DNA of 64,000 bases from Singulisphaera sp. GP187 (GTDB lineage Bacteria > Planctomycetota > Phycisphaerae > Phycisphaerales > SM1A02). Below are positions 18,223 to 23,426 of this stretch, one piece after another. The number at the start of each line of letters is the position of its first letter. The first letter of the stretch is position 1. The DNA lies in assembly GCA_945862215.1 (NCBI GenBank), contig CAMAXY010000004.1, forward strand, positions 1-64,000, in the 5' to 3' direction. The notes under the pieces were generated by a model, which had not been told where the DNA came from, made no database searches, and saw only the letters and a program-made list of their open reading frames with translations. A program made the translations under genes and the position numbers.

Positions 18223-18909
18223 TCACTCGCGAGGCGGCGAACAAAGCGGTCCCCAGTCATCGACATATCCATGTTCGGTGATGACATGCAAGAATGCGGG
18301 AACAAGTTCGCCAAGTGCGACAAGGGAACGATCGACTGCAATTCGATTTTGATTACCACCATACGAAGCCGCTCCCAAAGTCAATTGATGAACAGTCAAT
18401 CCGATTCGCTCCAACAAACCTGCGAGAAATCCTGAGTCATCCGCAGGAATTTCCAGGCTGCGGCTCGCTGATGAATTCGCACTGGTCATCCCAAGAGCTT
18501 GTGTCAGATATGGATCATTCCACATCAATGGAGCATTCACACGCAGAGTGCCGAGCAACTTTGGCATGATGCTGTCACGATCCCACTGAATGACTTGGCG
18601 AGCAAATGATGCGGTCGCTTCTCGTTGCGCAAGCGGCGCACCAAGCAGCGCACTCCATCTGCCGAAGAGCGCACCCGCAGATGCCCAGAGTTCGATCAAC
18701 TTCGTGTCGTGTTCGTTTATGGAACGAGACTCTGACATCGCAAGCCATGTCAATGATCGATGCACACGAATACGAGCATCTTCGTACAAATGCGCTTGCG
18801 CATATGAATCACGGCGAAGTTTCCAAAGACTTCGCAACACCTCGGCGCGAAGTGGAGCGAGTTCGGTCGGTGCGTGCGGGCTTGCAGATGTATTCGGGTC
18901 GATATTCAT
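18223..18909 (-). CDS. Conserved-looking hypothetical protein, helical
   Basis: I do not recognise this 228-residue protein. It is soluble, without a signal peptide, mostly helical by composition, with a charged N-terminal half (LRAEVLRSLWKLRRDSYAQ) and a Gly/Ala-rich C-terminal half ending DDWGPLCSPPRE. Its ATG overlaps the crcB-like stop by four bases, so it is translated from the same message as the fluoride channel and metH. That coupling argues it is a real gene. Function unknown. Confidence 0.65.
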   Translation of the reverse strand: MNIDPNTSASPHAPTELAPLRAEVLRSLWKLRRDSYAQAHLYEDARIRVHRSLTWLAMSESRSINEHDTKLIELWASAGALFGRWSALLGAPLAQREATASFARQVIQWDRDSIMPKLLGTLRVNAPLMWNDPYLTQALGMTSANSSASRSLEIPADDSGFLAGLLERIGLTVHQLTLGAASYGGNQNRIAVDRSLVALGELVPAFLHVITEHGYVDDWGPLCSPPRE

Positions 18910-19793
18910 TCGCTCTCTTGTCGCACTTTATTCGAAATCGGAATTGGACTGATCGATTCTCGTGCAGGGAAACATCGATATGCGATCCACCAACCAAGTA
19001 TTGTAAATGTCAATCCCATAAGAAGGTTCACGCCGCCAATCAAGAGTCCGATTAGCAGGGAGTGGCGCATCGCCTCGACAATCTCGATCGAGAGCGTGCT
19101 CATTGTGGTCAATCCTCCGGCGAAACCGAAAACAAGTAAACGTTCAAGAGTCAATCTTCGCGAAGGCTCATGGAGCGCCACGCCATTTGCGTCCAAAGAG
19201 CAAAGCCAGCGGAACGCAAATCCTGCAAAACCAGATCCAATCACATTGACCAGCGCAGTGGCGGTCCAGATTGGAAATCCAATTATTGGAGCAAGAAATT
19301 GCACAAATATGCGAATACCAGTGCCCACGAAACCGCCGACTGCGATACCGAGCAAGCCGGACATGTGATGAGTGATTCGTCGACCTGCAAGCGGGATAAT
19401 TGCTGCGGTCGAAATTGCACTTCGAGCCACAAACATCGCAGCGAAAACAGAACTGATCCAAGCAATGAGCGGACCGCCGATCATGGTTCCCATCGCAACG
19501 GTGACTGCCGCACGACGACGGCCGGCAATCCATTGCACGACAATATCCACGCACATCGAACTGAATGTTGTGAATCCACCAAGAAATCCCAGCGTGAAAA
19601 GCGCCCACTCAAACGATCCTTCAGTCATTCGCACTGCGAGGCCCGCAAGCGCGCTTCCAGCCAAATTGATTGACATAACCACGCGCCAACTTGCAATCCC
19701 TTTGTAGACGAATTCGTCCCGCACAACGATACGAGTCCACGCGCCAAGGCCGCCCCCCACTGAACCGATCAATAGCAACTCGTGATTGTGCAC
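18906..19793 (-). CDS. Fused two-domain CrcB/Fluc fluoride channel
   Basis: This 295-residue membrane protein contains two CrcB domains in one chain. Domain 1 (about 5-122) has SINLAGS with Asn43 and GFLGGFTTFSSM at 69-80; domain 2 (about 145-275) has LVNVIGSGFAG with Asn183 and GFAGGLTTMSTL at 223-234. Ordinary Fluc subunits are about 125 residues and dimerise antiparallel to expel fluoride. Eukaryotic FEX proteins are fused and degenerate in one pore. Here the two-Phe pore motif TTFSTF reads TTFSSM and TTMSTL, so only one of four phenylalanines remains. I count four membrane spans per domain; a fifth, short linker span (about 126-137) is possible and would be needed for antiparallel orientation. 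It lies 45 bp after metH. Confidence 0.85.
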   Translation of the reverse strand: MHNHELLLIGSVGGGLGAWTRIVVRDEFVYKGIASWRVVMSINLAGSALAGLAVRMTEGSFEWALFTLGFLGGFTTFSSMCVDIVVQWIAGRRRAAVTVAMGTMIGGPLIAWISSVFAAMFVARSAISTAAIIPLAGRRITHHMSGLLGIAVGGFVGTGIRIFVQFLAPIIGFPIWTATALVNVIGSGFAGFAFRWLCSLDANGVALHEPSRRLTLERLLVFGFAGGLTTMSTLSIEIVEAMRHSLLIGLLIGGVNLLMGLTFTILGWWIAYRCFPARESISPIPISNKVRQESE

Positions 19794-19838
19794 AAACGCA
19801 TTATCACTGATTTCACAGTACTTGTCGCTGCGAGGGCG

Positions 19839-22800
19839 TCATGCCGAAAAATACTTTGCCTGCGGATGATGCACAATGATTGCGCTTGTCGACTGCTCTG
19901 GATCAATTTGATAATTCTCTGTAAGCACACAACCAATTCGCTCGGGCTTGAGCAATCGGAAGAGTTTTTCTTGATCAGCCATGTCTGGGCATGCTGGATA
20001 TCCAAATGAATACCGACTGCCTCGATAATGCTGCTGAAAGAGTCGTTCCACTTTCGGATCATCCTCGTGAGAAAATCCAAGTTCCATACGCACACGCTTA
20101 TGCCACATTTCCGCAAGAGCCTCTGCGCACTCGACTCCCATTCCATGCAAGTACAAATATTCTGTGTACTGATTGCGCTCGAAGAGTGACTTTGCTCGAA
20201 CGCTTGCTTCTGTTCCCATCGTCACGCAAGTCAGTGCGAGAACATCGCGTTTTCCACTCGTCGTCGGCAAGAAGAAATCGCTGATCGAGATTTTCCGGCC
20301 AGCCTTCTGGCGAGGGAATGAGAAACGTTCGATTTCTCGGTCTTGATCGACTGCGTCATAGATGATTAAGTCCATATCCGAGGAATTGCAAGGGAAATAT
20401 CCCCACACCACCGCAGGTCGGAGGATTTTTTCTTGACGACATTCGCCCTTCAATCTTGTCAGAATTGGCTCGACTTCATCGTCGAGAAACTTGGCATATG
20501 CCGCATCATCAAAATCGCCGCGACGAAATCCCCACTGCCCGCGGAAAAGCGCGGTTCGATTAATGAAGGGATAAATCATGTCCAAATCAAGACGCTCTAC
20601 CAAACGGGATCCCCAGAACGGTGGATCAGGAATCGGATTGTCATGGAGCAAGACTCCGCCAACGGTCGCACCTGAATCGCAGTTCGCAGTATCGGGAAAG
20701 GCAGTATCGAATTCATTGCTCTTCGATGCAACTCCCACCGCAGTGATCTCGCTTGCTCGCAGCGCATTCGCTTTGACCTTCGCATCGACCGCGGCACGCT
20801 TGGCAAGTCGCGCATCGATCTCTGAGTTGATCGCAGGCAGCGTGCCAGTTGCCATCGCCTCGCACACCGAAAGTCCTTCGAATGCATCGCGGCCGTAATA
20901 CAGTTCGCCTTGATAGACCTTCCGGAGATGACCCTCCGCATAATGGCGTGTCAGCGCAGCACCACCAAGCATGATTGGCACACGAATCTCTTGACGATTC
21001 ATTTCGCGTAGATTTTCTTCCATCACCGTCACGCTCTTCACAAGCAATCCGCTCATACCGATCGCGTCAGCGCCCGTGGCTCGCCAAGCATCCAAGATTT
21101 GTGCGAGACTCTGCTTGATGCCAATATTGTGCACTTTATAGCCATTATTAGAGAGAATAATGTCGACAAGATTCTTACCGATGTCGTGCACATCACCAGC
21201 GACAGTGGCAAGCACAATCGTGGCCTTCGGCTTCGCATCCATTCCAACGCGCTCCATATGCGGTTGGAGAAATGCGACGGCTTTCTTCATGACTGACGCA
21301 CTCTGCAACACGAATGGCAATTGCATACGACCTGCGCCAAACAATTCGCCAACCGTCTTCATTCCAGCCAAGAGATAATCATTGATGATTGCCAATGGCG
21401 AATAGATCTTGAGTGCTTCATCAAGTGACGCTTCCAGCGACTTCTCTTCTCCATCGATGATGTGCCTCTGCAAGCGATCCTCAATTCTAAGAGTCTCCAT
21501 CGGCTCAGCCTTGACCGCAGAAACTCCATCTGGAAAAAGCGAAATGAAATGCAGAAGTGGATCGAATGATTCTGGTTGTCCTTCAGGTCGTTCTGCGCCC
21601 CGTCGATCAAAGACCAACCACTGCGCGGCCTGCCAGTGTTCTGGTGGAATCTTGCTCTCTGGCAGAATGCGCGAAACATGCACGATGGCCGCAGTCAATC
21701 CACGAGTCCGCGCTTCATGCAAGAACACACTGTTCAGCACTGCCCGAGCTGCGGGCTTCAAACCGAATGAAATATTCGATAGTCCAAGAATGATGGAGCA
21801 CCGCGGAAATCGCTGCGAAATCAGCCGAATTCCTTCGAGTGTTTCCAGTCCCAACTTTCGGTCGTCGGCATTTCCAGTTGCGATCGTGAACGTCAAAGGA
21901 TCCCAAAAAAGATCGGATTCATCCAACCCCCATTTGCGCGTGAACAAATCATGGATGCGCTCGGCGATCTCCAACTTACGCACGGCTGTCTTTGCCATGC
22001 CGGCTTGTGGATCTTCGTCGATGGTCAATGCGACGCATGCAGCGCCATACTTTTTCAAAAGTGGACAGATGCGATTCATCCGCTCTTCGCCATCTTCCAA
22101 ATTGATCGAATTGACTATGCACCGCCCGGGCGCATGCTGTAATCCAGCCTCGAGCACATCCGCTTGCGTCGAGTCGATCATCAACGGAGCATTCACCTGC
22201 CGCACAAATCGCGCGATCGTTTCAGACATATCACGCACGCCATCTCGGCCGACGAAATCGACGCAGACATCTAAAACATGAGAACCATCACGTAATTCTT
22301 CTTTGGCCATTGATGCCAGCCCGTCCCAATCTTCCGCGTCAAGCAAAGTCTTGAATTTCTTTGATCCATTTGCGTTCGTTCTCTCGGCAACAATCAAGAA
22401 AGAATTGTCTTGGCGAAATTCAGTTTCGGTATACAAACTGGAACACGCTGGAATCGGCAACTCGATTGCTCTGCTTGGCTTGGTCGAAGTCCAAGGCACT
22501 GCCTTGCGAAGTGCCGCAATATGTTCGGTCGTCGTTCCGCAGCAACCTCCAACGATGTTGGCTCCAAACTCCTCTATAAAACGGCGCATTGCAAGCGAAA
22601 AGTCCTCAGCGCGGAGCGGATATTCGGTTCGACCTTCGACCAGAATCGGCAATCCTGCATTTGGGATTACGGAAAATGGGCGATTCCAATGCTTGGCAAT
22701 GTGCGCAAGATGCGGGGTCATCTCCGTCGGTCCTGTTGCGCAGTTCAATCCAAGCGAAGCAATCGGAAATGGTCGCAGCGCATTCACCACAGCGCTGATA

Positions 22801-23426
22801 TCAGACCCCAAGAGCATCGTGCCCGTGGTCTCCATCGTGACTGAAACAAGAATCGGCATATCGCGAACAGTTTTTCCCGCTGCTTCAAGCGCTTCCAAAC
22901 ATGCGGTCACAGCACATTTAATTTGCAAAAGATCTTGGCATGTTTCGATCATGAAGCAATCTGCTCCACCATCGATCAATCCTCTGGCTTGTTCTCTATA
23001 GGAATCCGTCATCACCGACCACGATGCTTGACCGAGCGTTATAAGTTTCGTTCCAGGTCCCATCGATCCAGCGACAAATCGAGGTCGGCCAGGTTCGGAA
23101 TATTTTGCGCATGCGGCGCGAGCGATCTGCGCCGCTTTGACATTCAGGTCATATACCCAACCAACCATTTCTTCATCAAAGTCTGCCGCGACAAGTTTGT
23201 TGGTTCCGAATGTGTCAGTCTCTACAACATCAGCACCCGCAGCAAGAAAACTTTCGTGGATGCGCTGAATGATGTCTGGTCGCGATCGCACCAAGATGTC
23301 AGTGCAGTTATCGCGACCGATGTAATCCGCAGGAGTGCAATCGGCGCATGCGTGGATGGATGTTCCCATCGCTCCGTCGAAGACGAGCGTTCGCAAATCG
23401 AGTTGACCAAGAAAAGTTGGAGTCAC
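19839..23426 (-). CDS. metH: Cobalamin-dependent methionine synthase
   Basis: This 1195-residue enzyme transfers methyl from methyltetrahydrofolate via cobalamin to homocysteine. All four modules are present: homocysteine domain (about 1-310) with zinc cysteines in GLNCATGP near 229 and GGCCGTT near 293-299; pterin domain (about 340-620); B12 domain with the His ligand in DVHDIGKN near 743; and SAM-binding reactivation domain (about 880-1195) with RYSFGYPACPD. Length is close to E. coli MetH (1227), and cobalt uptake genes are absent. Translation starts at GTG. A 10-bp-stem hairpin lies about 37 bp upstream, but I see no recognisable cobalamin or SAM riboswitch in the 108-bp divergent spacer. 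Confidence 0.96.
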   Translation of the reverse strand: MTPTFLGQLDLRTLVFDGAMGTSIHACADCTPADYIGRDNCTDILVRSRPDIIQRIHESFLAAGADVVETDTFGTNKLVAADFDEEMVGWVYDLNVKAAQIARAACAKYSEPGRPRFVAGSMGPGTKLITLGQASWSVMTDSYREQARGLIDGGADCFMIETCQDLLQIKCAVTACLEALEAAGKTVRDMPILVSVTMETTGTMLLGSDISAVVNALRPFPIASLGLNCATGPTEMTPHLAHIAKHWNRPFSVIPNAGLPILVEGRTEYPLRAEDFSLAMRRFIEEFGANIVGGCCGTTTEHIAALRKAVPWTSTKPSRAIELPIPACSSLYTETEFRQDNSFLIVAERTNANGSKKFKTLLDAEDWDGLASMAKEELRDGSHVLDVCVDFVGRDGVRDMSETIARFVRQVNAPLMIDSTQADVLEAGLQHAPGRCIVNSINLEDGEERMNRICPLLKKYGAACVALTIDEDPQAGMAKTAVRKLEIAERIHDLFTRKWGLDESDLFWDPLTFTIATGNADDRKLGLETLEGIRLISQRFPRCSIILGLSNISFGLKPAARAVLNSVFLHEARTRGLTAAIVHVSRILPESKIPPEHWQAAQWLVFDRRGAERPEGQPESFDPLLHFISLFPDGVSAVKAEPMETLRIEDRLQRHIIDGEEKSLEASLDEALKIYSPLAIINDYLLAGMKTVGELFGAGRMQLPFVLQSASVMKKAVAFLQPHMERVGMDAKPKATIVLATVAGDVHDIGKNLVDIILSNNGYKVHNIGIKQSLAQILDAWRATGADAIGMSGLLVKSVTVMEENLREMNRQEIRVPIMLGGAALTRHYAEGHLRKVYQGELYYGRDAFEGLSVCEAMATGTLPAINSEIDARLAKRAAVDAKVKANALRASEITAVGVASKSNEFDTAFPDTANCDSGATVGGVLLHDNPIPDPPFWGSRLVERLDLDMIYPFINRTALFRGQWGFRRGDFDDAAYAKFLDDEVEPILTRLKGECRQEKILRPAVVWGYFPCNSSDMDLIIYDAVDQDREIERFSFPRQKAGRKISISDFFLPTTSGKRDVLALTCVTMGTEASVRAKSLFERNQYTEYLYLHGMGVECAEALAEMWHKRVRMELGFSHEDDPKVERLFQQHYRGSRYSFGYPACPDMADQEKLFRLLKPERIGCVLTENYQIDPEQSTSAIIVHHPQAKYFSA

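Follow-up and report, generated by a model that had tools for sequence, protein, structure and literature searches.

Flucs are the textbook case of inverted-repeat membrane proteins that arose from dual-topology ones. The homodimeric Fluc/CrcB proteins, among them Ec2, Bpe and most planctomycete CrcBs, are each encoded by a single four-TM gene and usually carry phenylalanine at both positions of the Phe box. In the paired heterodimeric Flucs, such as La1/La2 of Lactobacillus, two genes give two proteins marked by an opposite charge bias, and the orientation of the La1/La2 pair was argued from the positive-inside rule (PMC3755343). The fused stage has been placed only in eukaryotes in the literature consulted (PMC3755343), where the FEX proteins of fungi, plants and animals (PDB 9op1; PMC5417652) hold two Fluc domains per chain, joined by a long linker with a TM helix; their domain-2 pore works and the other pore is vestigial (PMC5417652). 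Each Fluc pore is made up of Phe-80 of one domain together with Phe-83, the Asn and TM4 of the other (Ec2, PMC4969038; FEX, PMC5417652). In Fluc-Ec2 the F80M mutant is active, and the F83L and F83M mutants are inactive (eLife 31259, PMC5636608).

In the window, by which we mean the whole 64,000-nucleotide stretch of DNA from the planctomycete Singulisphaera sp. GP187 that was analysed, an intact open reading frame of 295 amino acids plus stop, with a GTG start, occupies positions 18906–19793 on the minus strand, as do all window features given below. The first-pass annotation had placed two CrcB domains in one chain at these coordinates, and this is borne out by a Pfam search in which both halves match PF02537, with 92.9 bits for the whole protein in two stretches against a cut-off of 32.9, and 51.1 and 48.1 bits for the two domains alone. 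The product is divergent, since its score of 71.3 bits against the NCBIfam equivalog TIGR00494, "fluoride efflux transporter CrcB", falls below the cut-off of 80.45. This is the sole CrcB locus of the host genome (2.79 Mb, 93% complete). A fused frame of 275–325 amino acids is present as one ORF in 17 of the 19 genomes of the genus, with a split copy in none and with neither frameshifts nor internal stops in the 17 frames, which rules out the assembly error or frameshift joining two genes that had been named at the outset as a possible refutation. The remaining two genomes, G013 and G014, are missing crcB, and in G013 (L169, contig C16) the downstream gene for a 228-residue protein is retained. 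Pairwise dN/dS values of about 0.13–0.22 for the whole fused gene indicate purifying selection, and the stretch spanning TM4 of domain 1 and the linker gives about 0.2–0.57, above the whole-gene value in most pairs. Residues Asn-43, Asn-183, Arg-21 and Arg-161 and the GGxT turns are invariant among the fused proteins, some of which are only 33% identical to that of the window, and are shared by the copy from genus g6, at 24% identity.

An AlphaFold model of the window protein built from an 18-row alignment (pLDDT 82.5, pTM 0.81) contains four helices in each domain with a Fluc-type broken TM3, in agreement with the four spans per domain counted initially. Domain 1 (residues 1–122; positions 19428–19793) has helices at 3–30, 35–54, 61–74/77–89 and 93–122, and domain 2 (residues 139–276; positions 18966–19379) at 140–171, 175–197, 210–228/231–244 and 246–274, the breaks falling at residues 75–76 and 229–230. 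Both domains thus show the broken TM3 with its GGxTT turn and, together with the pore Asn, the features by which a CrcB/Fluc is recognized; the PF02537 match, the broken TM3, the Asn, the Arg and the GGxT turn are all shared with the homodimeric proteins. The linker (residues 123–138; positions 19380–19427) is an apolar stretch of 14–16 residues (AISTAAIIPLAG) running into RR, which is shorter than the usual TM helix, and in the model residues 123–139 are unstructured, with a pLDDT below 50 for the linker. A doubtful short linker span had been proposed here, and the short apolar stretch is indeed present, but the model has no helix in it. An alignment with FEX had been suggested initially, and the best PDB match of the model is 9op1_C, the cryo-EM structure of Candida albicans FEX, which aligns with residues 1–270 of the model across both domains (Z 24.0, 253 residues). 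One-domain Fluc chains match at Z about 12, as seen for domain 2, and aquaporin and formate-channel entries at Z 6–8 were disregarded as lying below the noise level for helical bundles.

Positively charged residues are distributed in opposite ways over the loops of the two domains. Summed over 18 fused proteins, the N terminus and loop 2 of domain 1 contain 7 Lys and Arg residues against 100 in loops 1 and 3, whereas the N terminus, loop 2 and C terminus of domain 2 contain 192 against 19 in loops 1 and 3, and the bias is opposite between the domains in all 18 proteins. By the positive-inside rule, domain 1 would therefore have its N terminus outside and domain 2 its N terminus inside. The AlphaFold model indicates the same antiparallel arrangement, although the program knows Flucs of this kind and could be forcing the model into that form. 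The relative orientation of the domains had been left undecided in the first-pass annotation; with loop charges and model pointing the same way, the predicted antiparallel arrangement is well supported.

We compared the pore residues with those of Ec2 and of FEX. The two pore asparagines noted earlier, Asn-43 in domain 1 (Ec2 Asn-41; positions 19665–19667) and Asn-183 in domain 2 (19245–19247), are kept in the window protein and in all 18 fused proteins. The Phe boxes read TTFSSM in domain 1 and TTMSTL in domain 2, so that in place of Phe at both the Ec2 F80 and F83 positions of each domain the protein has Phe/Met and Met/Leu. At the F80 positions, Phe-77 (19563–19565) is Phe in 16 of the 18 proteins, and the place of Met-231 (19101–19103) is taken by Met in 11, Val in six and Leu in one; at the F83 positions, Met-80 (19554–19556) is Met in 15, Leu in two and Phe in one, and Leu-234 (19092–19094) is Leu in 16, with Val and Ile once each. 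In a set of 56 planctomycete CrcBs encoded by single genes, the F80 position is Phe in 52 and Tyr in four, the F83 position is Phe in 48, Tyr in five, Trp in two and Leu in one, and 45 have Phe at both. Because these single genes stay aromatic there save for one Leu, the Met and Leu residues at three of the four positions represent a real departure.

Following the published pore map (PMC4969038, PMC5417652), pore II would be composed of Phe-77 together with Leu-234, Thr-179, Asn-183 and Asn-256, and pore I of Met-231 together with Met-80, Val-39, Asn-43 and Thr-103. The initial reading that at most one pore keeps one phenylalanine thus holds, pore II being that pore. Thr-179 (19257–19259), at the position of Ec2 Thr-37 (Bpe Thr-39), is Thr in 16 of the 18 proteins, while domain 1 has lost this residue: Ile or Val stands there in 14 of 18, and 15 are without the pore-I Thr. 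Asn-256 in TM4 of domain 2 (19026–19028), aligned to Ec2 His-106, is Asn in 15, Ser in two and His in one. The polar residue at Ec2 Ser-102 is lost in both domains. The predicted pores are therefore worn asymmetrically, in a FEX-like manner, with the domain-2 pore the better kept. FEX and the window protein are alike in their two domains per chain, predicted to be antiparallel, in their overall fold (Z 24), in the ooFooX motif of domain 1, in having the Thr of the TM2 motif mainly in domain 2 and in the better preservation of one of the two pores. They differ in domain 2, where FEX has ooXooF with Phe (rarely Trp) at the F83 position and the window protein has Leu-234, so that the one pore with both Phe residues that typifies FEX is not found. 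The Glu of domain 2 is cytoplasmic in the model of the FEX paper, whereas domain 2 is predicted here to have its N terminus inside, implying that the kept pore has the opposite orientation.

By the Ec2 rules neither pore is predicted to conduct, because the F83 positions hold Met and Leu. However, natural single Flucs with Leu, Trp or Tyr at F83 exist, several of them in genomes where no other CrcB was found, which suggests that Ec2 is perhaps not universal. No clear pattern of covariation between the F83 and H106 positions was seen in the single genes.

The origin of the fused chain can be read from its relatives. Adjacent crcB gene pairs occur in several other genera of the family, and mostly single genes are found elsewhere in the order and phylum. 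In a quick domain tree of 107 rows, covering the sampled planctomycetes, domain 1 of the fused proteins groups with the upstream genes, and domain 2 with the downstream genes, of the pairs from genera g18, g38 and g41, whose tandem domains stand in the same order as in the fused chain and are its nearest relatives. Since the two domains are encoded by neighbouring genes in sister genera and by single genes in other families, these computations show that the fused chain descended from an adjacent heterodimer gene pair by gene fusion. The bacterial chain, whose domains group with local gene pairs, probably arose separately from the fungal and plant fusions. A concatenated tree supports the fused genus at 97/94; the joining of this genus with g6, g18 and g38 is unsupported, with long branches, and one or two fusions (g1, g6) are accordingly possible. 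The first-pass annotation had regarded close relatives with separate subunits and intact pores as fatal to its claim. Separate pairs do exist, and those of g41 mostly have Phe/Phe in the domain-1 pore and Phe/Leu in the other, thereby keeping one all-Phe pore where the fused genus has none, but the nearest pairs, from g18, are as degenerate as the fused genus, combining TTFSGC (in one case TTFSGF) with TTLSAL. These relatives explain the origin of the fused gene and do not refute it. Because the g41 and g18 pairs are already partly degenerate, wear of the pores began before the fusion; the degenerate Phe boxes stand as first described, whereas the wear is uneven, in favour of the domain-2 pore, and partly older than the fused chain. 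In one g41 genome (G141, L111 2704–3195 (-)) the two CrcBs appear to have been joined by an in-frame deletion, with TM3 of the first running into loop 2/TM3 of the second.

The linker differs markedly among the fused proteins. In contrast to the long FEX linker with its TM helix, that of the window's genus is very short or absent. Genus g6 (G023, G641) has a clear hydrophobic TM helix at the linker position. In G017, a single genome nested within the fused genus in the concatenated tree, a short polar stretch replaces both TM4 of domain 1 and the linker, so that three helices lead into domain 2; the AlphaFold model of this seven-TM product (pLDDT 87.2, pTM 0.85) matches FEX at Z 19.4. From these sequences and models it looks as though the inversion helix was present (g6), then vestigial (the window's genus) and then lost together with TM4 (G017), with the inverted topology kept. 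The G017 form (L051 2959–3783 (+)) retains Phe at the F83 position of domain 1 (TTFSAF) despite the lost TM4.

A search for fused CrcBs, which sampled planctomycete genomes, was proposed in the initial annotation; besides the 17 genomes of the genus and g6 (G023, G641), it yielded fused two-domain Flucs in G512 (L115:791-1863) and G478 (L120:864-1860), both on the plus strand. Single-chain two-domain Flucs are therefore not an exception confined to the window's genus among bacteria. G512 and G478 form a separate branch of the concatenated tree (98/95), a lineage that fused independently. Their linkers are hydrophobic and long enough for a helix, unlike the short window linker, and their Phe boxes are fuller (TTFSSY/TTFSTF and TTMSAF/TTFSAF). 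A fluoride riboswitch (RF01734) lies directly upstream of both fused genes, whereas none was found in the window or its host genome.

The surroundings of the fused gene are largely constant. As first observed, crcB lies 45 bp (19794–19838) after metH, which encodes a cobalamin-dependent methionine synthase identified by Pfam (19839–23426), and is followed by a gene for a protein without a Pfam or NCBIfam match. This soluble protein of 228 residues (18223–18909) starts inside the crcB stop codon, the two overlapping at ATGA (18906–18909). metH is directly upstream of crcB in the loci of the fused genus and adjoins the fused gene in g6; the 228-residue gene then follows crcB in the genus, although G004 and G007 do not have it in this position. 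The crcB pairs in g18, g41 and g57 are followed by this gene as well, the upstream neighbour not being metH in g18 and g41 and the contig ending in g57; in other genera the gene occurs apart from crcB, and its family is present in 69 of the 151 genomes of the taxonomic family. By position, the 228-residue gene belongs to the crcB locus. Profile matches of its product in the PDB to TAL repeats and phosphodiesterases are meaningless, no stretch passing alone. Members from g41 read RNQLVHGG, which we take to recall the R-x4-H of HEPN proteins, and the window copy is without both residues. A CLC-F antiporter was considered as the real fluoride exporter of the genome. The only CLC-type channel gene of the host (contig C15, L112 1213–3108 (+), a 631-residue frame) has GHGV at what is presumably the GSGIP site and a C-terminal extension that looks to us CBS-like, and for these reasons it is probably not a CLC-F.

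Taken together, we favour, at a probability of roughly 0.58, the reading that the window protein is a single-chain, antiparallel, FEX-like Fluc which arose by pair fusion and acts as a putative fluoride channel, with the domain-2 pore kept and its second site altered. The fusion, its conservation, the charge inversion, the FEX-like model and the descent from gene pairs are established by computation. Domain 1, with its N terminus outside, and domain 2, with its N terminus inside, would together form an antiparallel Fluc barrel, the linker of 14–16 residues presumably passing through the membrane between them. The better-kept pore would lie on domain 2, with Thr-179, Asn-183 and Asn-256 joined by Phe-77 lent by domain 1, and the pore on domain 1, with its Met/Met, no Thr and an eroding TM4, is probably vestigial, which would leave a single working pore. 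With Leu-234 in place of Phe at the second fluoride site, we infer a fluoride channel in which that site is altered and perhaps slower. Fluoride conduction is predicted with moderate confidence, the Ec2 rules and the natural single Flucs with Leu, Trp or Tyr at F83 standing against each other. The F83 residues that are dead in Ec2, the loss at Ser-102, the lack of a riboswitch in window and genome and the missing gene in two of the 19 genomes all count against this reading. A broader proposal, to which we would give slightly less than even odds, is that this is a putative working anion channel without a Phe pair, its domain-2 pore consisting of Phe-77, Leu-234, Thr-179, Asn-183 and Asn-256, in a lineage where the linker helix shrinks until the seven-TM G017 form stays antiparallel without an inversion helix.

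Alternatively, the Fluc scaffold may have changed its job, passing another small anion or differing greatly in its rate or selectivity, with the Phe box given up under selection. Met, Leu or Val at three of the four Phe-box sites across the genus, set against the 56 single-gene homologues, would fit such a change, as would the conservation of the replacements Met-80 and Leu-234, the constant metH–crcB–228-residue gene order, and the fuller Phe boxes of the riboswitch-linked G512 and G478 proteins beside a genome with no riboswitch. We nevertheless consider it unlikely: the Asn ladder, the TM1 Arg and the GGxT turn of the Na site are invariant, Phe-77 is nearly so, and Leu, Trp or Tyr at F83 in natural single Flucs means that loss of this Phe alone is no proof of a new substrate. 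It is less probable still that the channel is decaying, with both pores dead and the gene persisting by inertia. Residues dead in Ec2 at both F83 sites, the disappearance of crcB from G014 and from G013, which still has the downstream gene, and the TM4 deletion in G017 are what such decay might look like, but low dN/dS values, pore residues invariant down to 33% identity and 17 frames free of frameshifts and stops speak against it. That the two domains of each chain are parallel, the working channel being a dimer of two oppositely inserted fused chains, would suit the window linker, in which an ordinary TM helix has no room and none is predicted, but is highly improbable given the opposite charge bias of the domains in every fused protein, the inverted arrangement preserved both with the full g6 linker helix and with the loss of a TM and the linker in G017, and the near inactivity of engineered parallel tandem Flucs (PMC3755343).

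The single-chain, FEX-like Fluc of the window's genus thereby joins a range of forms within one bacterial family, which holds intact pairs, half-degenerate pairs, fusions whose linker is a helix or a mere vestige, and one fusion that has dropped a helix, with single genes in other families. The protein of this genus is the most worn member of a series otherwise described across kingdoms. Each step of the series could be made as a small synthetic gene, so that the order in which the genes fused and the pores and linker were lost is directly testable, and the conserved Leu and Met replacements offer a natural test of the need for the Phe box in fluoride permeation outside Ec2.
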